From: Pedobacter jeongneungensis
GTDB taxonomy: Bacteria; Bacteroidota; Bacteroidia; Sphingobacteriales; Sphingobacteriaceae
Assembly (NCBI RefSeq): GCF_000633455.1
Contig: NZ_AYMG01000006.1
Location: 1-64,000 of the forward strand
Direction: 5' to 3'
Length of the DNA stretch: 64,000 nucleotides
Positions 39,185-56,872 of this stretch are shown here, in pieces (position 1 is the first letter of the stretch; each line of letters opens with the position of its first letter). The translations under genes were made by a program, and so were the position numbers. A model generated the notes under the pieces. The model saw nothing but the letters and a program-made list of their open reading frames with translations. It searched no databases and had not been told where the DNA came from.

Positions 39185-41746
39185 TTAATGCACAATCTGC
39201 TGCGCTCTACGGAGGTTATCGGTAGCCTGTAAAATCTTATCTTTTAATTTAGGGTTGTAATCAGGATGCGATTTTAAGAATTCCTGTACAACAGCATAAG
39301 CATTTTTGTTATTATAACTTGAAAATATAGCAGCTAACCATGATTGAGGGAAAAATATATCTCCGGTTTTTTGTATCTCCTCCAATAAATCTAAACTCTC
39401 TTTAAGATATTTTTCTGATGTAACCTGTCTGATCGGATGATGCAAATAAGCCAAAGCTGTGGTTACCCAAGCTTCTTTCCGGCGGTTTTTTCGGTCTTTT
39501 AAGCTATTGAAAAAATTATCCCGCTCTTTCGCATTTAAGGAAACAGCAGGCATTAAATAAATCAGCCTGTTCTTACGGTCTTCATTTTTTGTCCGCGATA
39601 ACTGTTCTTTTAAGATGGTATTAACTGTATCTGTTTTAAGCGCTAAGGTTAAAGCTAGTGAACTGTAATCATCTTCCTGAAGCTTGATACCTTCCGGCGC
39701 TGATTGTTTTAACCAGATATTATATAAACGTTTTCCTGCATCAGGGCTTTGATAAATGTTCTGGTAAGCATTAAACAGGATTTTCTTATTGTTTGCCACT
39801 TGTTCTTGTTCTAAGGTGTTCCAAATGGTTTTCTCCATTAAAACGTTAATAGATTCCCGCTTTTCTGCGGTGAGGAATGTCCAGTAAATATTGGTCATGT
39901 AACCCGTGAGCAAACGCAGATTCATTTCATTTTTCTCTACCGTAATTCCTTTAAGCAGTATTACCATAAGTTCGTAAGGCTTAAAACTTTTGCCCGAAAG
40001 CATATTTTCATAGCAATTGATGTAAGCTGAAGCCCTTTCCAGCGGATCGGTAATATGATAAACATCAGTGACCATGTGTTGATCAACCGGAAAAAGCCCA
40101 TAACCTGCCCCATTGGCATTAAACAAAATATATTGCGGTTTTGGAAGGCCATTTGCTTCTGTTACAATCGTTTTGGCCGTCATGGCATTAACGGTCAAAA
40201 CTTTGTTATAGGCAGGATAAACCAGCTTTACGGTAAAAGATTGTGGCCATACCCTTTGTCCGCCAACTTCGCCAGTTTGATTTAGGCTTAAATCGCTAAT
40301 TTTATCGCCATCATATTTAACATCATAACTAAAAACTGGCCTGCCCGGCTCATTTACCCAAACTTTGTTCCAACTATACAGATCACTTTTAGCGTATTTA
40401 CTTAAAATAGCGATCAGATCGTTCCATGTAGCGTTGCTGTAAGCGTATTTTTTCAGATATTCCCTGATCCCCTTCTGAAAATTTTCTTTACCCATTAAGA
40501 GTTCGAGCTGACGCATCATAATTGGTGCTTTGTGGTAAATGATGTTGCCATACATCGAGCCGGCTTCCTGGAGGTTATCCAATTGCTGGCGGATAGGATT
40601 AGCGCCTAACGTCCTGTCTACACCATAAGCTGCCGGATAATGATCCTGAAGGAATTTAAGGTCGAAAGTACTTTTACCCATCAGCTTTTCGGTTACTTTA
40701 TCAGCCATAAAATTGGCAAATACTTCTTTCATCCAAACATCATTAAACCATTTCATGGTTACCAGATCGCCAAACCACATATGCGCTGTTTCGTGCGAAA
40801 TGAGGTTCGATCGCGAAATAAACTGATCTTTGGTTGCGCCCTGATCCAAAAATAAAGCCGATGCTTTATATTGTACTTCACCCGGATGCTCCATACCACC
40901 AAATTGAAAATCGGGAATCCCTACAAAACCTACCTTTTGAAAAGGATATTTTATGGCCGTCCACTCTTCTAAAAAATCGATGGCATCGCGGTGGGCAATG
41001 AAAATAGAATCTACACTAAATTTGATTTTGGCCGAATCGGTTTCACGGTGTAAAAATTCCATTTCGCGTTCTTTTATTTTCTGATTAGCGTAGGTGTATT
41101 TTCCCGCCGTGAATGAGAATAAATAAGTAGGCAGTTTATCCGAATTTTTAAAATGATAAGTTATCGCATTCACCTGCTTTAACGAATCTTTTTTAACGGC
41201 ATTAGCCATTACCTTCCAATCAGTTGGAACGGTTAACGAAAGTAAAAAATTAGCTTTTAAATCTGGCTGATCGAAACAAGGGAACACTGCTCTGGCATGA
41301 TCAGGAACAAAAAGCGCATATAGAAAATCCTTATTCCTGTTCAGCGATTCGTTACCCGCAATGAAGCTGATTTCGATGTGGTTATTACCAGGCTTTAAAT
41401 ACTGTTGATCTATGAGAATGTGCTCATTCTTAAACTCGATAGTTATTGCTTTTCTATTAACGGCAATTGTTTTCAAATGATCTGCACTTTGCTTAAAGTC
41501 AATTTGTAACAGATCTAATTTATTCAACTTAAAATCAATACTTTCTGTTGATTGAATCGGAGCCGTTTGTTCAGCAGGAATAGTAAAGTGAAGCTGATAC
41601 CGAATGTTGCTGATGCTGGCACTTCGGGCATTTGCCAGTGCAAGCGAAACACCAGTTTCAACTGCAATTTTCCGCCCTGCCTGCTGCGCAAAAGCGGTAG
41701 CGCTTAAAAGAGAGAAAAGAAAGAAATATTTTGTGATTTTATTCAT
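39185..41746 (-). CDS. M1-family zinc aminopeptidase, exported
   Basis: An 853-residue metallopeptidase that removes N-terminal residues from peptides. The signal peptide is residues 1-20 (ending TAFA). The exopeptidase motif is GGMEHPGE at 283-290, a variant of GAMEN. The zinc site is HETAH at 318-322 with Glu341 (HExxH-X18-E). A helical C-terminal domain follows. It lies 11 bases after the Nramp-like gene and ends the pxp operon, which suggests peptides and 5-oxoproline released from them are used together. Confidence 0.94.
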   Translation of the reverse strand: MNKITKYFFLFSLLSATAFAQQAGRKIAVETGVSLALANARSASISNIRYQLHFTIPAEQTAPIQSTESIDFKLNKLDLLQIDFKQSADHLKTIAVNRKAITIEFKNEHILIDQQYLKPGNNHIEISFIAGNESLNRNKDFLYALFVPDHARAVFPCFDQPDLKANFLLSLTVPTDWKVMANAVKKDSLKQVNAITYHFKNSDKLPTYLFSFTAGKYTYANQKIKEREMEFLHRETDSAKIKFSVDSIFIAHRDAIDFLEEWTAIKYPFQKVGFVGIPDFQFGGMEHPGEVQYKASALFLDQGATKDQFISRSNLISHETAHMWFGDLVTMKWFNDVWMKEVFANFMADKVTEKLMGKSTFDLKFLQDHYPAAYGVDRTLGANPIRQQLDNLQEAGSMYGNIIYHKAPIMMRQLELLMGKENFQKGIREYLKKYAYSNATWNDLIAILSKYAKSDLYSWNKVWVNEPGRPVFSYDVKYDGDKISDLSLNQTGEVGGQRVWPQSFTVKLVYPAYNKVLTVNAMTAKTIVTEANGLPKPQYILFNANGAGYGLFPVDQHMVTDVYHITDPLERASAYINCYENMLSGKSFKPYELMVILLKGITVEKNEMNLRLLTGYMTNIYWTFLTAEKRESINVLMEKTIWNTLEQEQVANNKKILFNAYQNIYQSPDAGKRLYNIWLKQSAPEGIKLQEDDYSSLALTLALKTDTVNTILKEQLSRTKNEDRKNRLIYLMPAVSLNAKERDNFFNSLKDRKNRRKEAWVTTALAYLHHPIRQVTSEKYLKESLDLLEEIQKTGDIFFPQSWLAAIFSSYNNKNAYAVVQEFLKSHPDYNPKLKDKILQATDNLRRAQQIVH

Positions 41747-42941: not shown

Positions 42942-43699
42942 TTGCCTGGCGCTTTAATGGAAATACCTTCTTTTTTTAATCTTTCAGCAATGAGTTTGGC
43001 AAAAGCTACGGCATGTGCGCCATCGCCATGCAGGCAAACTGTTTCAGCAACAACCTCAATGCGATTACCTGTTACACTATTTACTTCTTGTTTTAAAGCA
43101 AAATTGAGCACCTGATTAATGGCATCTTCTTCACTGGTTACCATCGCATTATGATTCGAACGCGGCGTAAGTGTGCCATCATCCTGATAAGTACGATCGG
43201 CAAAAACCTCTGAAGCGGTTACAATTCCTTTCTCTTTTGCTTCAGTAATCATTTTACTCCCTGCTAAAGCATAAAGCATTAAATCAGGGTCGAAATCGTA
43301 AACGGCCTGAACAATCGCTTTCGCCAATGTTGCATCTTTTGCAGCCATGTTGTACAATGCGCCATGTGCTTTAACATGATTTAACTTACCGCCAGCGGCT
43401 TTTACAAAAGCACTTAAAGCACCAATTTGATACAAGGTGAGCTGATAGGCCTCGCTGGCAGTAATCTTCATTTCTCTGCGACCAAACCCCTGCAGATCGG
43501 GCAAACCAGGATGCGCGCCAATGGCCACTCCTTTTTTTACGGCTAAAGCAACCGTTTGCTGCATTACTCCAGGATCGCCGGCATGGAAACCACAGGCTAT
43601 GTTTGCTGATGAAATATAATCCATCAGCAGATCATCGTTGGGCATAGCATAATTCCCAAATGCTTCACCCATATCGCAATTAAGATCGATCATCTTCAT
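42938..43699 (-). CDS. pxpA: 5-oxoprolinase subunit A
   Basis: The LamB/YcsF-family subunit of the prokaryotic ATP-dependent 5-oxoprolinase PxpABC, which opens pyroglutamate to glutamate. The 253-residue protein carries the family signatures DLNCDMGEAFGNY, SANIACGFHAGDPGVM, GAHPGLPD and KAHGALYN. It overlaps pxpC upstream and the transporter downstream by four bases each, indicating tight translational coupling. Confidence 0.96.
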   Translation of the reverse strand: MKMIDLNCDMGEAFGNYAMPNDDLLMDYISSANIACGFHAGDPGVMQQTVALAVKKGVAIGAHPGLPDLQGFGRREMKITASEAYQLTLYQIGALSAFVKAAGGKLNHVKAHGALYNMAAKDATLAKAIVQAVYDFDPDLMLYALAGSKMITEAKEKGIVTASEVFADRTYQDDGTLTPRSNHNAMVTSEEDAINQVLNFALKQEVNSVTGNRIEVVAETVCLHGDGAHAVAFAKLIAERLKKEGISIKAPGK

Positions 43700-44700
43700 A
43701 TTTTAATATATTTAAGGCTTATCGCCGTGGTAATCAAGCTTAAATCATGTTCACGCTCAAAATAAAGTTCTTCTGCTTCATCGGCTGAAATTTCAGAAAA
43801 GCGGATCACATCGCCTGGTTTTAGCTGCGCACATGAAGGTAAATCTACTGCAGCTATATGTGCAATACGCGGATAACCTCCAGTTGTTTGGCAATCGGCC
43901 ATCAATACCACCAAATCGCCACTTCCCGTTACCTGGATCACTCCTGGCGTTACGGCCGTGCTGAGCAGCTCTTTTTTAACTTTCCTCACCAATGGTGTTC
44001 CTGATAAATGATAGCCCATGCGATTGCTTCTCCTATCAATGCTATAGTTTTTGGTTAAAAAGGAAATGATCGAGGTGGCGTCGAACCAATTGATTTCATT
44101 TCCCAGTACCACCCGAACCGTTTGCCTATCCTGAGGCAGTAAACTCTCGCGCGAAATGCGCCAGTTTGGGTAAATAATTCCTTTTTTAATCAGCTGATCA
44201 AATATCTGCTCAGAAACCTGGCTTACGGATTGATTATTCATTAAAACATCTCCTTTTCGGAGCGCTCTACCACTTAATCCACCAAAACCAGCCGTAAGGT
44301 AAGTGCTTTTGCTTTCCATCACATCGGGCACATTCCAGCCTCCTGCCACAGCCAGGTAGGTCCAAACTCCAACAGGATTGGCAATAAATTTTACAATGGA
44401 GCCTGCGCGAAAAAACAATGGCTTTTCTGCAGGCATTAATTCGTCGTTAAAAACCAGAAAAGCCCCGTCCCCCGAATAAGCCGCCAAAACATCTGTTTCG
44501 GCCTTAAACGATGCTTCTGCGTAGCTAAATTCGATGGTTGCCAGCCCGTCATCGTTCCCCACTGCTTTATTGGCCAGCCGGTGTGCCAACTGATCCATCG
44601 CACCAGAAACAGGCACGGCCTGCGAAAGATACCGGTACCTGCCCAGATCTTGTACAGTACTTAACATACCAGGTTTAATAATGCTGATTTTCATATTCAT
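43696..44700 (-). CDS. pxpC: 5-oxoprolinase subunit C (biotin-dependent-carboxyltransferase-like)
   Basis: A 334-residue KipA/AHS2-family subunit that works with PxpB in phosphorylating 5-oxoproline. Signatures include KPGMLSTVQDLGRYRYLSQ, VPVSGAMDQLAHRLAN and SNRMGYHLSG, then VMADCQTTGGYPRIAH. Its start overlaps the end of pxpB by 26 bases. A second in-frame ATG lies two codons downstream. Confidence 0.95.
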   Translation of the reverse strand: MNMKISIIKPGMLSTVQDLGRYRYLSQAVPVSGAMDQLAHRLANKAVGNDDGLATIEFSYAEASFKAETDVLAAYSGDGAFLVFNDELMPAEKPLFFRAGSIVKFIANPVGVWTYLAVAGGWNVPDVMESKSTYLTAGFGGLSGRALRKGDVLMNNQSVSQVSEQIFDQLIKKGIIYPNWRISRESLLPQDRQTVRVVLGNEINWFDATSIISFLTKNYSIDRRSNRMGYHLSGTPLVRKVKKELLSTAVTPGVIQVTGSGDLVVLMADCQTTGGYPRIAHIAAVDLPSCAQLKPGDVIRFSEISADEAEELYFEREHDLSLITTAISLKYIKI

Positions 44701-45454
44701 TTTGCAGCATCATATTAAATTCATCTTTAGCAATAGGCTTAAAGGTAACCTGATCTCCCCCTTTTAATAACGAAGGTTGTGGGCGGCCTACATCGAACAT
44801 TTTTAATGGGGTTCTTCCTATAATCTGCCATCCTCCGGGAGTTTCCATAGGATAGATACCGGTTTGCTTACCTGCTATCCCCACAGCACCAGCTGGTATT
44901 TTTGCATCAGGAACAGCCTTTCGTGGTGTAGTTAAATGGGTATCCATCCCGCCCATGTAGGCAAAACCCGGCACAAAACCGATCATAAATACGGTGTAAA
45001 GTCCTGAGGCATGTATTTCGATTACTTCATCTATAGTGAGCTTGTTAGTTTTTGCAACGGTTAAAATATCCGGACCAAAATCTCCTCCATAACAAACGGG
45101 GATTACTACTCTATCGGTTGCAAGGTGGGATTCTGCTCTTTTTGTTTGACCGATATTTTTAAGGTATTGTGCTACTTTATCGTAACAAAATTTGCCGGGA
45201 AGATCAGATGCAGCAACGATTAAGGGATCAAAAAAAATGGCTAAGCTGGCATAGGCCGGCACTGTTGTGATTAATCCGGGAAAGGGATTTTGTAACAAAA
45301 ACTGGTTAAAACCAGTAATTAAGCTCAATAATTCTTCACTTATTAATGTTCCAAACTCTACAGTAACCGACTGTTCGCTTAATGCATAAATATTTACCGG
45401 ATAATCTGTAGAAAAATACGCACGCTGTTCTGCCATATCAAGAAACCTGATCAT
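44675..45454 (-). CDS. pxpB: 5-oxoprolinase subunit B (KipI-like)
   Basis: A 259-residue AHS1/KipI-family subunit of PxpABC and the first gene of the operon. The cyclophilin-like domain carries GLYTVFMIGFVPGFAYMGG, TPRKAVPDAKIPAGAVGIAG and ETPGGWQIIGRTP. In Bacillus the homologue also inhibits a sporulation kinase, which is irrelevant here. The start is the first ATG; another ATG (MAEQRAYF) six codons later is possible. Confidence 0.95.
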   Translation of the reverse strand: MIRFLDMAEQRAYFSTDYPVNIYALSEQSVTVEFGTLISEELLSLITGFNQFLLQNPFPGLITTVPAYASLAIFFDPLIVAASDLPGKFCYDKVAQYLKNIGQTKRAESHLATDRVVIPVCYGGDFGPDILTVAKTNKLTIDEVIEIHASGLYTVFMIGFVPGFAYMGGMDTHLTTPRKAVPDAKIPAGAVGIAGKQTGIYPMETPGGWQIIGRTPLKMFDVGRPQPSLLKGGDQVTFKPIAKDEFNMMLQNEYENQHY

Positions 45455-46954: not shown

Positions 46955-47193
46955 GAACTATAAGTAAAACATACAAGCTTTTAATAGAATACCAGACAAG
47001 GATTTAGTCTTGGCCCTTTTGGCCCAGCATTTCTATCCGTACCGATATCAATTAGTTTTGGCATTTTCTTTTAACATCTTAGTCCATAAAGACCGAAAAT
47101 TTAAAAAGGCCACTATAAATAGCGGCCTTTTTTGGTGGATGGCTTTCACGTAAATAACTCGCTTAAACCGACTAAAGCATTTCTTAGCTTTTA
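46955..47193. repeat. Duplicated flank of the exoprotein array, copy 1
   Basis: From ACATACAAGCTTTTAATAG to the A1 stop codon, this stretch is nearly identical to 48973-49183 and 52066-52274. All three include a CCGTACCGATATCAATT-like segment and the terminator. The homology continues through the adjacent A-type gene. Confidence 0.85.
47103..47132. terminator. Bidirectional terminator, copy 1
   Basis: AAAAAGGCCACTAT (47103-47116) pairs with ATAGCGGCCTTTTT (47119-47132), with one A-C mismatch, around a two-base loop. Confidence 0.85.
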
Positions 47194-47640
47194 TTACCTA
47201 TTCTCTTTAACTGACACACTATCATAAGTCGGTGGAGAGTAAGGAACCTGACTTACTTTATTGGTTCTATATTTATTGCCGGGTAATACTTCGGTAATAT
47301 AAAGCTCGTAAATACCACTCAGGTAACCCCTGGTTTCTGCCAGGATATCCATAAACTCTTTAAAACTTAAATAATCATAATCAGGTTTTTTAGATACGGT
47401 TTCTGCAATTTTATCTCCTTTTTTGATGTAGTAATAAAAGGATGTAAAATCTTTATATGGGGGTGTACACCTGCAAAAAAAAGTAAAGTGATGTTCAAAA
47501 AAACTTGCTGTTTCAATTTTCAAAAACCGGTTCTGTTTAGCTATATTTATGGTATCAGCCAGAAAATATATTTTTCTGTTTTGCGAAGAAGCCTTGTAAA
47601 ATGAAATGATTAAAAGGCTAAATAAAAGTATTTTTTTCAT
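47194..47640 (-). CDS. Array protein A1: small exported protein, unknown function
   Basis: One of three paralogues (others at 49184-49627 and 52275-52721). The 148-residue protein has a signal peptide (MKKILLFSLLIISFYKASSQ) and a conserved core with FFCRCTPPYKDFTSF, KKPDYDYLSFKEFMDILAE and GYLSGIYELYITEVLPGNKY. The two cysteines in CRC could form or bind something in the periplasm. I recognise no family. I start at the signal-peptide ATG; an upstream frame of 12 residues is unlikely. It is downstream of the B gene, 77 bases away. Confidence 0.75.
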   Translation of the reverse strand: MKKILLFSLLIISFYKASSQNRKIYFLADTINIAKQNRFLKIETASFFEHHFTFFCRCTPPYKDFTSFYYYIKKGDKIAETVSKKPDYDYLSFKEFMDILAETRGYLSGIYELYITEVLPGNKYRTNKVSQVPYSPPTYDSVSVKENR

Positions 47641-47717
47641 GTTAAAAGATTTTATTTTGGGCAATTGGTACTTCATTCCCCTTACTAATTAAAAAAATAT
47701 ACTGCCAGCTAAACTAT

Positions 47718-48635
47718 TTAATTTGTTTTTATATCATCTAAAGATACCGGTATCATGACATCCTCCTGTACATAATTTTTAATGAGGCCTGCTGTGCCGG
47801 CCTGCTCGTACCATGCGTCATACGAGCCACCAATTATCCCAACCCCTTTTACGAATAGAAAACGGTCAATACCTCTTTTATGATTGTCCGAATCGATGGT
47901 CGGCCAATCAGAAAACTGCCAGAACCTATAAGCATCGTACCCAAGGATCTTTACCTTGCCGGAGTTGAAAAGCAAAGGCTTTTCCAATGGTCTTTTCAGG
48001 CTTGTTGTACCCGATGTTTTTTTTGATACTATACAGTTTGGCGAGAAGCCACCATAAACTGTCCGATACTTATCTTCAAAATCCTTTACCGATAATACAG
48101 GTGACAGGGTATTGATAAATATATTTCCCATTGAATTGGGGAATATAAGTGCCTGTTCATTAATCCTGAAATATTCCGCAAATGCGTCTGATGCTTCAAA
48201 AAATTTGTTGCCTTTCCTGATAATGATACCTATGTCACATCTCTTTAAATAGCTGTCATTATATCCCCCTGATTTTATATATTCTGAAAAGCCATTGGTG
48301 AATATATTTTTCAAGTCTTGCAGGCTTATTATTTTTCTACCTCCTGCTTTGATATCTATTTCCTTTAAACTGTTCCCTGGATTGAATACCGTGAACAATA
48401 TCAGGGAAAGCGAATCAAACCTTATATTGTATAACCTAATCTGATCTTTAGTTCTATAAAGTTTTTCCGCACTTAGATTCACCTCTGTAGTTTTATAACT
48501 CGGATCCTCGACATCGATCAAAAAATATTGATTAAAATGTTTTTTGCTGTCATTGGTTACCACTTTTTCTCCATTTGCTCCAAATGATATAAGTACCATA
48601 AGAAGCATAATTGTTCTGATCTTTTTCATGGGCAT
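47718..48635 (-). CDS. Array protein B: exported protein, unknown function
   Basis: A 305-residue protein with signal peptide (KKIRTIMLLMVLISFGANG), otherwise mixed alpha/beta, and no family I recognise. Its tail motif AYRFWQFSDWPTIDSDNHKRG and C-terminal VMIPVSLDDIKTN are unremarkable. It occupies the place in repeat unit 1 that the zincin-like lipoproteins occupy in units 2 and 3. It lacks their N-terminal domain and their HExxH motif, so it is not a paralogue by eye. A second ATG lies two codons inside. Confidence 0.65.
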   Translation of the reverse strand: MPMKKIRTIMLLMVLISFGANGEKVVTNDSKKHFNQYFLIDVEDPSYKTTEVNLSAEKLYRTKDQIRLYNIRFDSLSLILFTVFNPGNSLKEIDIKAGGRKIISLQDLKNIFTNGFSEYIKSGGYNDSYLKRCDIGIIIRKGNKFFEASDAFAEYFRINEQALIFPNSMGNIFINTLSPVLSVKDFEDKYRTVYGGFSPNCIVSKKTSGTTSLKRPLEKPLLFNSGKVKILGYDAYRFWQFSDWPTIDSDNHKRGIDRFLFVKGVGIIGGSYDAWYEQAGTAGLIKNYVQEDVMIPVSLDDIKTN

Positions 48636-48659
48636 CTTTTAATTGTTGATAAATGATAT

Positions 48660-48885
48660 TTCTGAATTGATTAAACACAGATCTAATTAATTACACAACT
48701 TATAGGATCGACCTTTTTCCAATAGCATACCATTCATTTACAATTATGCATCCAATTTCATAATAGCACATCCACCATTACAATAATATACCGTCTATTC
48801 AACCTAAAAGCCTATTATTTACAATTACACAAAAGCATTCATAACAATACAGAATACTTTATACATCCACACATAACTAACATAA
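48660..48885. other. AT-rich spacer, no gene
   Basis: This gap upstream of gene B holds only AT-rich sequence with repeated ATTTACAATTATGCATCC and CATAATAGCACATCC wording. The same wording recurs in 51790-51975. I see no frame, promoter box or stable hairpin in it. Confidence 0.5.
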
Positions 48886-49183
48886 ACTGTAGAAGTGGGA
48901 AAAAATTTCTACATTTTATATTTGATAGCTTCTATGATTTCGATAGTTTTTTTCGAATTGCGAGTAAAACTTACAAGCTTTTAAGAGAATACCAGACAAG
49001 GATTTAGTTTTGGCCCAGCATTTCTATCCGTACCAATATTAATTGGTACTGGCATTTTCCATTAACATCTTGGTCCATAAAGACTAAAAATTTAAAAAGC
49101 CACTATAAATAGTGGCTTTTTTGGTGGGTAACTTTCACTTTAATAAGTCGCTTTAAACCGACTAAAGCATTTCTTAGGTTTTA
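48886..49183. repeat. Duplicated flank of the exoprotein array, copy 2
   Basis: Starts at ACTGTAGAAGTGGGAAAAA and matches 51979-52274 closely (including TTTATATTTGATAGCTTC and TTTCGATAGTTTTTTTCGAA), and copy 1 from 48973 on. Confidence 0.85.
49094..49121. terminator. Bidirectional terminator, copy 2
   Basis: AAAAAGCCACTAT pairs perfectly with ATAGTGGCTTTTT. Compared with copies 1 and 3 it has lost a G-C pair and restored full pairing (C to T on the right arm). Confidence 0.85.
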
Positions 49184-49627
49184 TTACCTATTCTCTTTAA
49201 CTGACACACTATCATTAGTTGGTGGCGAGTAAGAAACCTGACTTACTTTATTGGTTCTATATTTATTGCCGGGCAATACTTCGGTAATATAAAGCTCGTA
49301 AATACCACTCAGGTAACCCCTGGTTTCTGCCAGGATATCCATAAACTCTTTAAAACTTAAATAAGCATAATCAGGTTTTTTAGATACGATTTCTGCCATT
49401 TTATCTCCTTTTTTTATGATATAAGAAAAGGACGTAAAATCTTTGTATGGGGGTGTGCACCTGCAAAAAAATGTAAATTCATGCTCAAAAGCATTTGCGT
49501 CAATTTTTAAAAACCGGTTCTGTTTAGCTGTATTTATAGTATCAGCCAGAAAATATATTTTTCTGTTTTGCGCAGAAGCCTTATAAAATGAAATGATTAA
49601 AAGGCTAAATAAAAGTATTTTTTTCAT
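49184..49627 (-). CDS. Array protein A2: small exported protein, unknown function
   Basis: A 147-residue paralogue of A1 and A3. Differences cluster just after the signal peptide and before FFCRCTPPY (KIDANAFEHEFTFFC here, KIETASFFEHHFTFFC in A1) and at the tail (VSYSPPTNDSVSVKENR). One residue is deleted relative to the others. The signal peptide ends KASAQ. It lies downstream of the small lipoprotein and the frameshifted zincin-like gene, in the same direction. Confidence 0.75.
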   Translation of the reverse strand: MKKILLFSLLIISFYKASAQNRKIYFLADTINTAKQNRFLKIDANAFEHEFTFFCRCTPPYKDFTSFSYIIKKGDKMAEIVSKKPDYAYLSFKEFMDILAETRGYLSGIYELYITEVLPGNKYRTNKVSQVSYSPPTNDSVSVKENR

Positions 49628-49715
49628 GTTAAAAGATTTTATTTTGGACAATCGGCAGGTATTTTTTTATTTGTAGAAACAATTTAAAGTTACAATTAAA
49701 ATATCTTATAAGGAT

Positions 49716-50102
49716 CTAATCGACAAATACGCTGGGTACTTCTTTTAAAATAAAATCCACCACGATGGAGTCACCATTCACCAGTTTAAATGGTTTAGTA
49801 GATGTTGATTCGAAGCCTACAGCTGTAGCATGAATTCGATACTCCCCCTCCTGCAGTTCAATCCGGTATTTTCCGTCGCGATCAGATAGGATGAGTTGCC
49901 CTGTATCAGCAGATTTTATTCCAGCACCAGGCAATATTTCTTTGCTTTTATTTCTTCTATAAATCGTGCCGATAACAATAACCTTGTCATTTTTAGTCTT
50001 AAATTTTTTTTTTGTATATCTGCCATAACGGTTTAAAGTGCAACCAAACAAAATTATTAAAACCATTGATAAACTAAATATTTGCTTTTTCATAATAATC
50101 AT
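49716..50102 (-). CDS. Small lipoprotein with carboxypeptidase-regulatory-like fold
   Basis: A 128-residue lipoprotein, lipobox ILFGC, followed by a Lys-rich linker and a beta-sandwich of the CarboxypepD_reg type (TIYRRNKSKEILPGAGI, SDRDGKYRIELQEGEYRIHA, VVDFILKEVP). Such domains mediate protein contacts at the outer membrane. It starts two bases after the frameshifted zincin-like gene and is unique to unit 2 of the array, so it may be the specific partner of that unit's C-terminal domain; this is inference. Confidence 0.75.
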   Translation of the reverse strand: MIIMKKQIFSLSMVLIILFGCTLNRYGRYTKKKFKTKNDKVIVIGTIYRRNKSKEILPGAGIKSADTGQLILSDRDGKYRIELQEGEYRIHATAVGFESTSTKPFKLVNGDSIVVDFILKEVPSVFVD

Positions 50103-50104
50103 GT

Positions 50105-51678
50105 TTAACAGCCTGAAGGTTTTCCTTTTCCGGCTTTAGGGTCGCCATTTCTATCTTTACCATATTGTTCTGCTTGTATAGTATCTTGTATACGGTTCTT
50201 TTCAGTATTAGAAAGCGCTTTGTAAGCAGGAGTAGCTTCTAAACCACCCCAGGCCATATCGCTATAAAACTGGTTTTTTTCTACTGTACTCGAAAAAGTA
50301 TAGTTATGTAAATCTCCATATTCCATTAATCCTTTCGCAATATCACTTTTAAACTCAGTGGTAATTTCAATATGATGCAGCACATTCATATCCTTTTTTT
50401 CAAGTTTAATCCATTCCACTAGCATTTCCGGATAAGAAAGGTTAGCTAATGTATTATTTTTAGTAAAATAAGATACAAGATAAGCATGCACTGCTTCGTG
50501 TAATAAAGTTCTTGCCAGTGCCATATCTGTGCCATTGGTATATTTGCTCACATCTATTGTTGTAGTTGCCCCACCATTCGATTTTTTAGTTTCCCCATTT
50601 GTATCTACAGCAAGGTTGCCAGCCTTCAATGTCCAGCTGTAGCCTGGCACTTCACCAGAAATTTTTTGAATCATGGCAACTACTGAACCTTCAGTCTGGT
50701 ACATTAGTGAATGCATTACTGAAGATGCACAGGGGCTCAGTTCATCTAGGTTAATATGTTGATTAAATTCTTCGGGAGTAGTTGTAGTTGTGCCATCACC
50801 ACTACCACCGCTTCCCCCACCAGTATCAATTGGTTCAGGCGGATCTGGAAACCACCTATCTTCGCACACTACCCCTTCATCAGAATCAACTAATGAATAA
50901 GTATCTCCGCAAGTTGACTGGGGCCAACTGCAGGTGGCACTGAATACGATATTCACTATTCCGCCGCACCAGCTGGGTGCCAATGAAGAATATGTACAAT
51001 TCCGAACTACCTGATTACATTCTTGCTGCCAATATGAAGTAGTACCTTTAACCGACTGCATTTTTTTTACTGCAAGCACTCCTTTTTTCTGATAGGAATC
51101 GCTGAGGTGTCCGTTCGAATAATCTAATATGTAGTTTTGTCCGTTCTGCAGGCTGGATAGCATGAGATTTCCAGTAAACAATTTCAAATCAAATTCCTTT
51201 GTATCCTTACCTATCTTTTCATTTGGATTGGCTTTTGGATCATAGTAAAAGCTTTGTAAAATTCCGATTCATTTTTAACCATCAGGTATAATTTTCCGTT
51301 AACCTGCTTTGCAAGTTCAGCTTTCCCGTTAACCACCACCTGGCCCAGCAACTGGTAAAAAACATAAGAAACACTATCATTTACCACCTGTATATGGGGA
51401 TGTTCCCAATCTGGACTCCATGATAGCTTATCGCTCTGATCAGGTTGAAGCTTTTGCTGAAGTTTTTGCTTTTCATAGGAATCCTTAATGGCATTCAAAT
51501 GTGTTTTCAAATCCGGTGAATTTACAGAGAGGGTCTTAATTCCACCAGAATCGCTGACTAACCTGTCTTTGGCACAACGAGCGACGATTATTCCGATAAA
51601 TAAGAGCAGGCAGAAGCTTGCGATTTTAGTAATAGAGTCTTTTTTTGGGTAATGACTCATCCATTTTTTTGACTTCAT
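50105..51678 (-). pseudogene. Array protein C1: zincin-like lipoprotein with a one-base frameshift
   Basis: Two overlapping frames (51678 to 51211, and 50105 up to about 51247) together match the intact gene at 52732-54426. At 51241-51252 the sequence reads CATAGTAAAAGC where the intact copy has CATAGTAGAAAGC, so one base is missing and the frame shifts after YKAF. Everything after it is intact: the Cys-rich middle domain, the GGGSGGSGDG linker and a C-terminal domain with HEAVHAYLVSYF (HExxH) and HHIEITTEFKSDIAKGLMEYG. This C-terminal domain differs from that of the intact copy. A sequencing error is possible. The internal ATG at 51187 cannot restore export. Confidence 0.8.
50814..51678 (-). 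repeat. Duplicated 5' part of the C genes, copy 1
   Basis: Nearly identical at DNA level to 53571-54426, covering the lipoprotein signal and about 285 codons. Identity stops sharply in the Gly-rich linker codons, after which the two genes differ. Confidence 0.85.
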
Positions 51679-51789
51679 AATAATTTGATGTGGTTAATTG
51701 TTGATAAATGATATTTCTCAACTGGACACAGATTTAACCAATGACACAGTAATTGAACAGATTTTTCTTTAAATAACATTCCTCCTTTC

Positions 51790-52274
51790 TTTATTGATAT
51801 ACCAGTTTTTTCATAACAACATATCATCTATTTACAATTCTGCATCCACTTTTATAATGATATATCGCTTTTCAAATTGATATGTACTCTATTTACATTA
51901 CAGGCCCATTATTCGCAATTACGAATCAGCATTTATAATAATAAATATCCATTATACAACTACATACAATTCCCATATACTGTAGAAGTGAGGAAAAATT
52001 TCTACATTTTATATTTGATAGCTTCTATGATTTCGATAGTTTTTTTCGAATTGCTAGTGAACATACAAGCTTTTAAGAGAATACCAGACTAGGATTTAGT
52101 TTTGGCCCAGCATTTCTATCCGTACCGATATCAATTGGTTTTGGCATTTTCTTTTAACAGCTTAGTCCATAAAGACCGAAAATTTAAAAAGGCCACTATA
52201 AATAGCGGCCTTTTTTGGTGAATGGCTTTCACGTAAATAACTCGCTTAAACCGACTAAAGCATTCTTAAGTTTA
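51790..52274. repeat. AT-rich spacer and duplicated flank, copy 3
   Basis: 51790-51975 repeats the CATTTACAATTCTGCATCC wording of 48700-48850. 51979-52274 is the third copy of the flank seen at 48886-49183. There is no gene here; a 71-codon frame at 51877 falls in the repeat. Confidence 0.7.
52186..52215. terminator. Bidirectional terminator, copy 3
   Basis: AAAAAGGCCACTAT (52186-52199) with ATAGCGGCCTTTTT (52202-52215), the same as copy 1. Confidence 0.85.
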
Positions 52275-52721
52275 CTACCTGTTTTCTTTAACTGACGCTT
52301 TATCCTCAGTTGGTACCCGATAAGGAACCTGACTTACTATATTGGTTCTATATTTATTGCCGGGTAATACTTCGGTAATATAAAGCTCGTAAATACCACT
52401 CAGGTAACCCCTGGTTTCTGCCAGGATATCCATAAACTCTTTAAAACTTAAATAATCATAATCAGGTTTTTTAGATACGGTTTCTGCCATTTTATCTCCT
52501 TTTTTGATGTAGTAATAAAAGGATGTAAAATCTTTATATGGGGGTGTACACCTGCAAAAAAAAGTAAAGTGATGTTCAAAAAAACTCTGTGTTTCAATTT
52601 TCAGGAACCGGTTCTGTTTAGCTATATTTATGGTATCAGCCAGAAAATATATTTTTCTATTTTGCGAAGAAGCCTTATAAAATGAAATGATTAAAAGGCT
52701 AAATAAAAGTATTTTTTTCAT
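52275..52721 (-). CDS. Array protein A3: small exported protein, unknown function
   Basis: A 148-residue paralogue of A1 and A2, closest to A1 (KIETQSFFEHHFTFFC). Its tail differs (VPYRVPTEDKASVKENR). I use the signal-peptide ATG, ten bases after the stop of the intact zincin-like gene; a longer frame overlapping that gene is rejected. Close spacing implies co-transcription with C2. Confidence 0.75.
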   Translation of the reverse strand: MKKILLFSLLIISFYKASSQNRKIYFLADTINIAKQNRFLKIETQSFFEHHFTFFCRCTPPYKDFTSFYYYIKKGDKMAETVSKKPDYDYLSFKEFMDILAETRGYLSGIYELYITEVLPGNKYRTNIVSQVPYRVPTEDKASVKENR

Positions 52722-52731
52722 GCTAAAAGAT

Positions 52732-54426
52732 TTATTTGGGACAATCGGTAGGTAATTTTTTATCTGCAGAAACATCTTTCAGATTAGCTAAATTAAAACC
52801 ATTTACCTCAGCATCTGTAATACCATATTTTGTTTTTATATTATTATAAGATTTATTTAATACTCCTTTGTAAATATCAAATAAATTTACCCCGTTAATT
52901 AATGGGTCTGTCGGAGTATCACCAGGATTATCTAACCCATACAATGCGGCCATTTGGTATTCCTTATCAGAGTAAGCCGAACCATTTATATCCTTTAAGA
53001 TACCCCAAATCTTATCGAAATATGTTTCCAGCATTATAGAATGATCCCTGAAATTGTTATCGACGGCCGAAGTTTTTGCAATATCTTCGAAATTAACAAT
53101 ATTAATGGCCCAGGTAGAATAGCGTTCTATATCTATAGGGTGGCTAAATTTCCCCATTTGAAGGTAATAATTAATATAGGCATGCCCGGTTTCGTGTATG
53201 GCTGTTACTTGTAGCAACAATTGTGATGCATTACTGATGGCCGCCTGATTAAATTGGATTTTCGAACTCGTTGCCGTAACCTGACCCGTGTGGGCTAAAC
53301 TATATTTTGTTTTACCATCAGGTGTACTAGCACCATAATCTTGTACAGAAGAATCATATTCCAAATTTGGGAAACCCTGCATAACAAAAGTTGTACCATC
53401 TGGAAATTTAACTTCCTCGAAAGGTTGAATCAGTTTAGCATATGCCTGGTTGGTTTCTAACTTGTTTAATACTTCCTTTACCATACATGGGTAATCCTTT
53501 AGGAGATTATCGTATTTAACCTCACTCTTTGGTACGCCTCCATCTCCATTACCACCTTCGCCCCCACCAGTATCAATTGGTTCAGGTGGATCTGGAAACC
53601 ACTTATCTTCGCAAACAACTCCTTCATCAGAATCAACTAGTGAATAAGTATCTCCGCAAGTTGACTGGGGCCAACTGCAGGTAGCACTGAATACGATATT
53701 CACTATTCCGCCACACCAGCTGGGTGCCAATGAAGAATATGTACAATTCCGAACTACCTGATTACATTCTTGCTGCCAATATGAAGTAGTACCTTTAACC
53801 GACTGCATTTTTTTTATTGCAAGCACTCCTTTTTTCTGATAGGAATCGCTGAGGTGCCCATTCGCATAATCTAATATGTAGTTTTGTCCGTTCTGCAGGC
53901 TGGATAGTATGAGATTTCCAGTAAACAATTTCAAATCAAATTCCTTTGTATTCTTACCTATCTTTTCATTTGGATTGGCTTTTGGATCATAGTAGAAAGC
54001 TTTGTAAAATTCCGATTCATTTTTAACCATCAGGTATAATTTACCGTTAACCTGCTTTGCAAGTTCAGCTTTCCCGTTAACCACCACCTGGCCCAGCAAT
54101 TGATAAAAAACATAAGAAACACTATCATTTACCACCTGAATATGGGGATGTTCCCAATCTGGACTCCATGATAGTTTATCGCTCTGATCAGGTTGAAGCT
54201 TTTGCTGAAGTTTTTGCTTTTCATAGGAATCCTTAATGGCATTTAAACGTGTTTTCAAATCCGGTGAATTTACAGAGAGGGTCTTAATTTCACCAGAATC
54301 GCTGACTAACCTGTCTTTAGCACAACGAGCGGCGATTATTCCGATAAATAAGAGCAGGCAGAAGCTTGCGCTTTTAACAAGAGAGCTCTTTTTTCGATAG
54401 GCTCCCATCCTTTTTTTAGTTTTCAT
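52732..54426 (-). CDS. Array protein C2: lipoprotein with HExxH C-terminal domain
   Basis: A 564-residue exported protein. A hydrophobic segment ends at a lipobox-like IIAARC (Cys35). An N-terminal domain (about 40-205) is followed by a cysteine-rich domain (about 210-282, with seven cysteines, including WQQECNQ and CSWPQSTCGD), a Pro/Gly linker DTGGGEGGNGDGG (286-298) and a C-terminal domain. That domain has HETGH at 411-415 and a later DHSIMLETYF that may give further ligands, so a zincin-type metallopeptidase is likely though unproven. The first 285 residues are nearly identical to C1, and the rest is not. No family name can be given. Confidence 0.78.
   Translation of the reverse strand: MKTKKRMGAYRKKSSLVKSASFCLLLFIGIIAARCAKDRLVSDSGEIKTLSVNSPDLKTRLNAIKDSYEKQKLQQKLQPDQSDKLSWSPDWEHPHIQVVNDSVSYVFYQLLGQVVVNGKAELAKQVNGKLYLMVKNESEFYKAFYYDPKANPNEKIGKNTKEFDLKLFTGNLILSSLQNGQNYILDYANGHLSDSYQKKGVLAIKKMQSVKGTTSYWQQECNQVVRNCTYSSLAPSWCGGIVNIVFSATCSWPQSTCGDTYSLVDSDEGVVCEDKWFPDPPEPIDTGGGEGGNGDGGVPKSEVKYDNLLKDYPCMVKEVLNKLETNQAYAKLIQPFEEVKFPDGTTFVMQGFPNLEYDSSVQDYGASTPDGKTKYSLAHTGQVTATSSKIQFNQAAISNASQLLLQVTAIHETGHAYINYYLQMGKFSHPIDIERYSTWAINIVNFEDIAKTSAVDNNFRDHSIMLETYFDKIWGILKDINGSAYSDKEYQMAALYGLDNPGDTPTDPLINGVNLFDIYKGVLNKSYNNIKTKYGITDAEVNGFNLANLKDVSADKKLPTDCPK
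53571..54426 (-). repeat. Duplicated 5' part of the C genes, copy 2
   Basis: Partner of 50814-51678. The boundary lies at CCCCCACCAGTATCAATTGG, within the codons of the Gly-rich linker. Confidence 0.85.
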
Positions 54427-55287: not shown

Positions 55288-55512
55288 ATGATTAAGAAGG
55301 AAAGCTCAATTATTCAGAATAATTTCGGTTTCAATTTGAAGAAAATTAGAAACAGTAAGGGCTTGAGTTTACGTGCAATGGCAAGAAACTGCGACATTGA
55401 CGATAGCAATATTTCTAAAATCGAGAATGGTAAATTTGATGTTCAGTTATCTACCATCTTTGAACTGGCCAAAGGGCTCGATATCCATCCGAAAGATTTA
55501 TTGGATTTTTAA
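55288..55512 (+). CDS. Xre-family helix-turn-helix regulator
   Basis: A 74-residue single-domain HTH_3 protein: FNLKKIRNSKGLSLRAMARN followed by the recognition helix DDSNISKIENGKF and VQLSTIFELAKGLDIHPKDLLDF. Small Xre proteins often control an adjacent mobile or defence gene. The GHKL ATPase gene converges on it 79 bases away, which may be coincidental. Confidence 0.9.
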   Translation: MIKKESSIIQNNFGFNLKKIRNSKGLSLRAMARNCDIDDSNISKIENGKFDVQLSTIFELAKGLDIHPKDLLDF

Positions 55513-55591: not shown

Positions 55592-56872
55592 TTACGATAC
55601 TAAACTTTTATTCAAAAGTAGTAAAGCCAGTTCATCATATTCTTCGGTTTCCAGCTCCATCAATCCATTAAATAGTTCGAACAACTGAACATGTTGATTT
55701 GAGTGCAACAAAAGATCGATCAAACGAACTAAAGTCTTTTTCTGATCGGTATTTAAGCTGCTGAACAACTTAGGCTCTATCTCGTACAAAGCTTTAATTA
55801 AATTTATCAGTGCTGGTTTCTTTAATTGTTTTTCACTTTCATTGGCATAAACAGGAAATATTTCATCCTGTTCGTAAGTTTCGATCAGTCGACTTGCATA
55901 TTCTTTTAAAAAAGGTTTACGCTTTTCTTTAAGGTACACAGTAAGTTCTTTAATTAAAAAACGGTATTCAGGAGAAGATTTAGCTGCGCCGAATATGGCC
56001 ACCTGTCCTTCGTTTTCGAAACTCTTAAAATCAAAATCCCTGAAAAAATCGCTGTCAATATAAATGCTATGGAAATAATCGTCACTTTTTTTATTCAATG
56101 TGGTATAATCTTTATAAATCTCTTCCCCTCCTGCCAGAAAATAATATTTAGATAATTCTTTATGAAGGTTTTCTTTCCAGTGCACATATTTAATCTTAAA
56201 AGTAACCGAGGTATCTGGATAAAAAAGATTAAACTCTTCTAATGTTCTTACATTACTGCTAAAATCCAAAGTTTCGCCATTTACGATAATTAAATAGTTT
56301 TTATGCTTGTTCAGTTCGATAAACCAGCAAAACTCATTGATCAGATAAGGCAATACCAGTTCTTTCATTTCTTGCTCCCCAATACGAAGGTTGGTAAAAG
56401 AGACTGTGGTTCCTGTATTACCAGTAATTGTTGGCTTAGCGGTAAAATCGTGACTATAACTATTTAAGCCGCCAGTACTAATGTTTATTTCACCGTAACG
56501 AAAGCCCTGCTCAGATTGGTAAGTGGTTTGCCAGGTGGCATCATGCGCAAAGGTAAAAAAGGTAAGCCGCCCTACCCCGTTACGCCCATGCATTTTTGAA
56601 GTGTGTTTTGGTGCTACAATTTGCAGTGATTTTTCTGATTCGTAAAAGGGATCGAATTTTTGCTGTAAACGCTCAAAATTAATCCCATAGCCATTATCAG
56701 CAATGGTTAAACTTTCTAAAAGCCCAAGGGCATTGGCAACATAATCTATTTCTATGGTATCGGCATTGGCATCAAAACCATTCCAGATATACTCGGCAAT
56801 AGCCTGTTTCTCGTTATAGTTTTTCAGTACCTTTTGTATTCCTTTTGAAGTGATGTTAACCTTTACCGACAT
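55592..56872 (-). CDS. Orphan GHKL (Hsp90/MutL/MORC-like) ATPase
   Basis: A 426-residue cytoplasmic protein. The Bergerat ATP site is complete: IAEYIWNGFDANAD with Asn31 and Asp34, ADNGYGI at 58-64, GRNGVGRLTFF near residue 100 and GTTVSF near 160. A transducer-like middle follows, and the tail is helical. There is no HisKA domain, so it is not a histidine kinase. It resembles the MORC/Hsp90-type stand-alone GHKL proteins, some of which occur in restriction or defence contexts; nothing else here proves such a role. A TATATTTG promoter box is 20 bases upstream. Confidence 0.82.
   Translation of the reverse strand: MSVKVNITSKGIQKVLKNYNEKQAIAEYIWNGFDANADTIEIDYVANALGLLESLTIADNGYGINFERLQQKFDPFYESEKSLQIVAPKHTSKMHGRNGVGRLTFFTFAHDATWQTTYQSEQGFRYGEINISTGGLNSYSHDFTAKPTITGNTGTTVSFTNLRIGEQEMKELVLPYLINEFCWFIELNKHKNYLIIVNGETLDFSSNVRTLEEFNLFYPDTSVTFKIKYVHWKENLHKELSKYYFLAGGEEIYKDYTTLNKKSDDYFHSIYIDSDFFRDFDFKSFENEGQVAIFGAAKSSPEYRFLIKELTVYLKEKRKPFLKEYASRLIETYEQDEIFPVYANESEKQLKKPALINLIKALYEIEPKLFSSLNTDQKKTLVRLIDLLLHSNQHVQLFELFNGLMELETEEYDELALLLLNKSLVS

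Follow-up and report, generated by a model that had tools for sequence, protein, structure and literature searches.

Predicted polymorphic effector-immunity array of lipoproteins with swapped peptidase domains in Pedobacter jeongneungensis

Genes and repeats of the array

A stretch of 64,000 nucleotides from contig NZ_AYMG01000006.1 of Pedobacter jeongneungensis, referred to here as the window, was analyzed for an array of predicted exported proteins on its minus strand at 47194-54426. The array was composed of three units: C2 followed by A3, a frameshifted C1 followed by CPR and A2, and B followed by A1. C2 and C1 are referred to as effectors and the small genes behind them as partners. The features were as follows.

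52732-54426, minus: C2, intact effector and predicted lipoprotein of 564 aa (open reading frame (ORF); lipobox followed by A-K-D; matched by the N-domain and C2-type zincin profiles)
53575-54426, minus: N-terminal, escort-like domain of C2, residues 1-284, Cys-rich in its end portion, common to C1 and to relatives with other C-termini
52735-53529, minus: C-terminal domain of C2, residues 300-564, with HETGH at residues 411-415 (53182-53196) and conserved H462, C314 and C562
52275-52775, minus: A3, predicted exported partner of C2, overlapping the end of C2; its start is possibly an internal Met
51807-52273, minus: repeated intergenic stretch from A3 to C1, 391 of 460 bases identical to 48714-49181
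51211-51678, minus: N-terminal piece of the frameshifted C1 gene (ORF list; own search match)
50105-51256, minus: C-terminal piece of C1 in the other frame (listed ORF 50105-51187), with HEAVH at 50486-50500
49716-50102, minus: CPR, predicted lipoprotein of 128 aa containing a CarboxypepD_reg domain; predicted to be the partner cognate to the C1-type domain
49639-49680, minus: vestige matching the final codons of a C2-type effector, VSTNKKIPADCPK and stop, 5' of A2
49184-49651, minus: A2, orphan A copy
48714-49181, minus: repeated intergenic stretch from A2 to B
47718-48635, minus: B, predicted exported protein, whose close relatives lie mostly behind another zincin subtype (C1Cc)
47652-47672, minus: shorter vestige of a C2-type effector end, STNCPK and stop, 5' of A1
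47194-47676, minus: A1, orphan A copy

The N-terminal parts of C1 and C2 were nearly the same, with 90% identity over C2 residues 1-146 and 95% over residues 142-284, and in the DNA stretch that was compared, which ran as far as the linker, 489 of 506 aligned bases agreed. Divergence began in a Gly-rich linker and led into different domains, each with an HExxH of its own, just as an earlier note on this DNA had reported from the letters. No blastp match was found between the two C-terminal parts at E 1e-3; profile searches gave weak similarity around the HExxH between the zincin classes, and a remote kinship among these classes is possible. Alignments of the two classes from relatives, made without the near-identical P0001 and without P0021 from the window, showed the HExxH in every domain (19 of 19 and 12 of 12), and a later His was conserved in both. 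The SprT-like profile (PF10263, cut-off 25.6) scored 12.1 with C2 and 14.3 with C1, both below the cut-off, and was passed by the relative P0034 with 28.7; zincins stood at the top of the VIA list. The CarboxypepD_reg match of CPR was above the Pfam cut-off (E 6e-10), and no toxin or immunity family was returned by Pfam and NCBIfam for C1, C2, A or B.

Other parts of the earlier description had to be revised. C1 had been taken for a whole lipoprotein gene, but it was split by a frameshift into the ORFs 51211-51678 and 50105-51187, which gave two separate search matches. A small A protein had been placed behind each effector, with a third copy behind an unrelated exported protein; three near-identical A genes were indeed present, and the third copy did lie behind B, but CPR was inserted between C1 and A2. 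The terminator said to be repeated with A held only in that the DNA 3' of each A gene belonged, like the A genes themselves, to direct repeats (families D1-D3), whereas a terminator-like hairpin was found only after A2 (49121-49094) in the scan of the array region, where hairpins were no commoner than in shuffles (5 versus a mean of 5.5). The upstream region of B was of the same kind as that of C1, because 48714-49181 repeats 51807-52273. C2-A3 looks like the only complete pair in the window, with C1 broken and its likely partner CPR retained.

Most effectors also shared a type of putative signal. By our own pattern, a lipobox was matched in 54 of 61 long effectors, which were predicted as lipoproteins by this pattern match only. 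Lys at position +3 together with Asp or Glu at +4 was found in 43 of 56 effectors, compared with 8 of 112 other lipobox-like ORFs and none of 9 CPR partners. Set against the lipoprotein export signal C-X-K-(D/E)2, the second acidic residue was usually missing in the effectors.

Domain exchange in relatives

In the search with the C2 protein, in which the best 7997 candidates by shared words were scored, at least 47 proteins were matched. Split at the linker, their C-termini comprised 20 of C2 type, 14 PPPDE-like, 13 C1-like of several subtypes and two singletons, the window's pieces being counted; many of these proteins matched the N-domain alone, and others the C2-type domain alone. The survey set consisted of 80 fetched stretches and the window. 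The 56 effectors of this set whose N-terminal part was 150 residues or longer fell into 6 N-terminal clusters, and the two largest (33 and 18 of the 56) each contained C2C, C1C, C1Cb and C1Cc domains. The N-domain was joined to at least six kinds of C-terminus, namely two zincin groups, PPPDE-like and M23 domains and, by eye, JAMM-like and CHAP/NlpC-like domains, and the zincins of N-domain loci were also present on a second N-terminal family.

These labels differed in their basis. The M23 peptidase C-terminus was matched in locus L124 with E 1.9e-15. The PPPDE label was drawn from P0024, which Pfam matched below its threshold (E 0.0014), and from His377 and Cys460, which were kept in 14 of 14 sequences. 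In L123, L126 and L128 the motif HxHP...S..D was seen by eye, which we take to be the JAMM motif; Pfam matched L128 alone, at E 0.084 and below the cut-off. The C-terminus of P0043 was CHAP/NlpC-like by eye with no Pfam match, and those of L106 and L120 received no label from Pfam or inspection. Taken together, the sequence comparison indicated that the domains on either side of the junction are exchanged. The earlier proposal of domain-swapping exoproteins of the polymorphic-toxin type was supported in this respect, and relatives carried more than the two C-terminal domains seen in the window.

In a stretch of 15 kb from a relative in the genus (L144), zincin effectors of different classes were gathered, five genes or gene pieces in all with their partners, and the stretch also had an A and a B gene.

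Partner genes and vestigial effector ends

For the partner analysis, 70 of 83 effector rows were used, 10 being dropped for want of a class and 3 for want of a same-strand downstream gene within 250 bases, and the first downstream genes were grouped into families by blastp. The adjusted mutual information of the partner family was 0.644 with the C-terminal class versus 0.048 with the N-domain, which was scored as a label of two states, present or absent. No common partner family was found in 375 pairs of a C2C with a C1C effector. When the N-domain was held constant (20 effectors), 14 of 35 same-class pairs shared a family, compared with 0 of 155 different-class pairs. Among loci found with effector queries (60 of 72 rows), the proportions were 148/339 and 5/1431, a difference reached in 0 of 2000 shuffles, which ignore kinship; they were 127/279 and 4/1152 after L144, L152 and L176 were removed.

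The C2C effectors were followed by the A family in 19 of 25 cases, C1C effectors by the CPR family in 9 of 15 and by family c4 in 5 of 15, and C1Cb effectors by c1 in 7 of 8. Behind the six PPPDE-like effectors, c9 was found three times, c8 twice and c21 once. Seven families stood behind the 11 C1Cc effectors, which have no single partner class, and two behind the four C1Cd effectors. Exceptions to the coupling were B-like genes behind the C2C effectors of L109, L115 and L118, three other C2C cases, L110 and L176. CPR is likely the cognate of C1, because in relatives genes of the CPR family lie behind C1-type effectors. In 8 further loci B lay behind a C1Cc-type zincin or a piece of one in 6 (L189-L193, L196) and behind other small genes in 2 (L194, L195). 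By eye, the small proteins downstream of the PPPDE-like effectors (L101, L103, L105, L156, L161, L167) were multi-membrane-looking, unlike the partners of the zincins, which looked soluble and exported.

Co-variation was confined to the C-terminal side. Between A and the C2-type domain, r was 0.773 in 18 of 19 pairs (one remnant was dropped) and 0.787 in the 14 pairs with a long N part, each with 0 of 2000 permutations reaching it. Between A and the N-terminus of the same 14 pairs, r was 0.115 and was reached in 308 of 2000 permutations, that is, there was no co-variation.

Traces of lost effectors were found before the other two A genes. The terminus of C2 reads VSADKKLPTDCPK and stop, and matching remnants preceded A2 and A1, with scores of 72 and 34; the highest scores among 2000 mononucleotide shuffles of each were 29 and 30. 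Because C2-like end codons persist before both, A2 and A1 likely descend from C2-type effector-A junctions; the lost effector before A2 was likely replaced by C1-CPR, and that before A1 was likely lost before B. Cut-down C2-type remnants were also found before A in L119 and L140, and with no A directly behind them in L122, L131 and L157. The 38 A genes of the fetched set comprised 13 behind a C2-type domain or remnant, 3 behind another A and 22 behind neither, in a tally where A itself had led to many of the loci, some of the A genes stood at contig ends and the preceding genes were partly classified. The earlier note had considered A too conserved for an ordinary cognate immunity protein. This doubt is answered because A partners the C2-type domain in relatives, and the A copies that follow C1 and B appear to be orphans left by displacement.

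Interpretation, related systems and surroundings

We interpret the locus as a polymorphic effector-immunity array of lipoproteins with swapped peptidase warheads and partners that are predicted immunity proteins, with a probability of roughly 0.72, because of the swapping, the class-specific partners, the co-variation of A with the warhead, the conserved zincin residues, the export-like signal on most effectors and the vestiges. The effector, a predicted lipoprotein whose shared N-domain is joined to differing predicted peptidase C-termini, would be displayed on the surface and transferred to a neighbour, the envelope of which would be harmed by proteolysis, while the exported partner would block its cognate warhead and guard the producer. 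A2, B and A1 would persist as a shield against effectors that this genome has ceased to produce. A wider proposal, to which we give somewhat less than even odds, is a weapon class across Sphingobacteriaceae: surface lipoproteins with a modular escort and interchangeable, all-peptidase warheads (SprT-like zincins, JAMM, M23, PPPDE, NlpC-like), which would be handed over by outer membrane contact and destroy envelope targets. Each kind of warhead would be opposed by its own immunity proteins, exported or in the membrane, and these would remain as orphans once that warhead had been exchanged.

Among known systems, the locus comes closest to lipoprotein toxins of the SitA type and to polymorphic toxins as a class. 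In SitA of myxobacteria, as is predicted at this locus, lipoprotein effectors are built from several N-terminal escort families on polymorphic C-termini, and the immunity gene lies directly downstream (PMC5562445, PMC8546572). The warheads of SitA are nucleases acting in the cytoplasm, whereas zincin, PPPDE-like and M23 C-termini with exported-looking partners were found here; SitA uses outer membrane exchange (PMC5562445). Polymorphic toxins likewise have a constant lineage-specific N-domain (MafB-N and Microscilla-N are examples), swapped C-termini and downstream immunity genes, and among them the peptidase toxin domains Tox-MPTase (zincin), Tox-PL (papain-like) and Tox-JAB and the lipoprotein immunity protein Imm65, which goes with Tox-JAB-1, have been described (PMC3482391). 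Their features recurred here: a constant N-terminus with swapped C-termini, the same C-terminus on different N-termini, a class-specific downstream gene, displaced cassettes, and orphans of the predicted immunity genes. Unlike polymorphic toxins in general, the present effectors are predicted lipoproteins with a signal that partly resembles the surface type, and for C1, C2, A and B no toxin or immunity family was named by Pfam or NCBIfam. BSAP and BcpT of Bacteroidales are also antibacterial toxins of Bacteroidota, but BSAPs are pore-forming, and swapped peptidase domains are not mentioned in the parts of these sources that were covered (PMC12853789, PMC9308784). Among the literature matches listed, whose coverage is partial, no lipoprotein-anchored, peptidase-based polymorphic system was described.

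The main rival reading is that of KLIKK-potempin-type exoproteases, in which surface proteases would serve nutrition or matrix degradation, with a co-encoded inhibitor shielding the producer and no neighbour attacked. It agrees with the peptidase-like nature of all labelled C-termini and the exported look of the partners; in Tannerella forsythia, too, an exported protease and a small exported cognate inhibitor are encoded in one operon, and the inhibitors are small lipoproteins specific to the co-expressed protease (PMC7296668). There the inhibitor gene precedes that of the protease, whereas here the partner lies downstream (A after C2) and the peptidase domain swaps. That partners are retained where no protease accompanies them (A1, A2 and B in the window, and the 22 of 38 A genes with neither a C2-type domain nor another A directly upstream) speaks against this reading, and the displaced effector ends, the several peptidase kinds on one N-domain and the multi-membrane look of the PPPDE-like partners fit an arms race better, so that it was judged unlikely. 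Chaperones or export adaptors, by which A, CPR and B would aid folding or display of the cognate C-terminal domain instead of inhibiting it, would equally produce class-specific coupling and co-variation, but a dedicated chaperone would not explain the orphan copies that persist without an effector, and this role appears very improbable. That unrelated lipoproteins were simply duplicated in tandem and decayed, their HExxH motifs being fortuitous, is scarcely credible: such a history suits the frameshift of C1 and the evident duplication of the DNA, but not the HExxH and later His kept throughout divergent domains, nor a partner coupling that recurs across loci.

If the effector-immunity reading is true, a lipoprotein-anchored peptidase branch would be added to the polymorphic toxins in soil Bacteroidota, A, B, CPR and the other partner families would be candidate inhibitors of zincin peptidases, and the locus would carry footprints of cassette replacement.

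With single-sequence queries, the own genome being included in each count, C2 was matched in 34 of 301 family genomes, and A, the C1 piece and B in 35, 30 and 9 of 145 genus genomes. The C2 query found no second copy in the own genome. With the C1 piece, two more distant zincin effector loci were found there, L170 on contig 13 and L171 on contig 10, whose effector genes each had their own exported-looking partner gene downstream; a distant A relative of 29% identity, with no recognised effector adjacent, was located on contig 31 (L175).

Around the array, no link was seen to the peptidase M1 gene (39185-41746) or to the genes at 43696-45454, presumably of oxoprolinase type as judged by eye, which precede it. 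Beyond C2 lay a gene for an HATPase_c_3 protein (55592-56872, minus) with a weak PADLOC match and an HTH_3 (XRE-type) gene (55288-55512, plus) with PADLOC matches of the restriction-control type, the best at E 9e-14.

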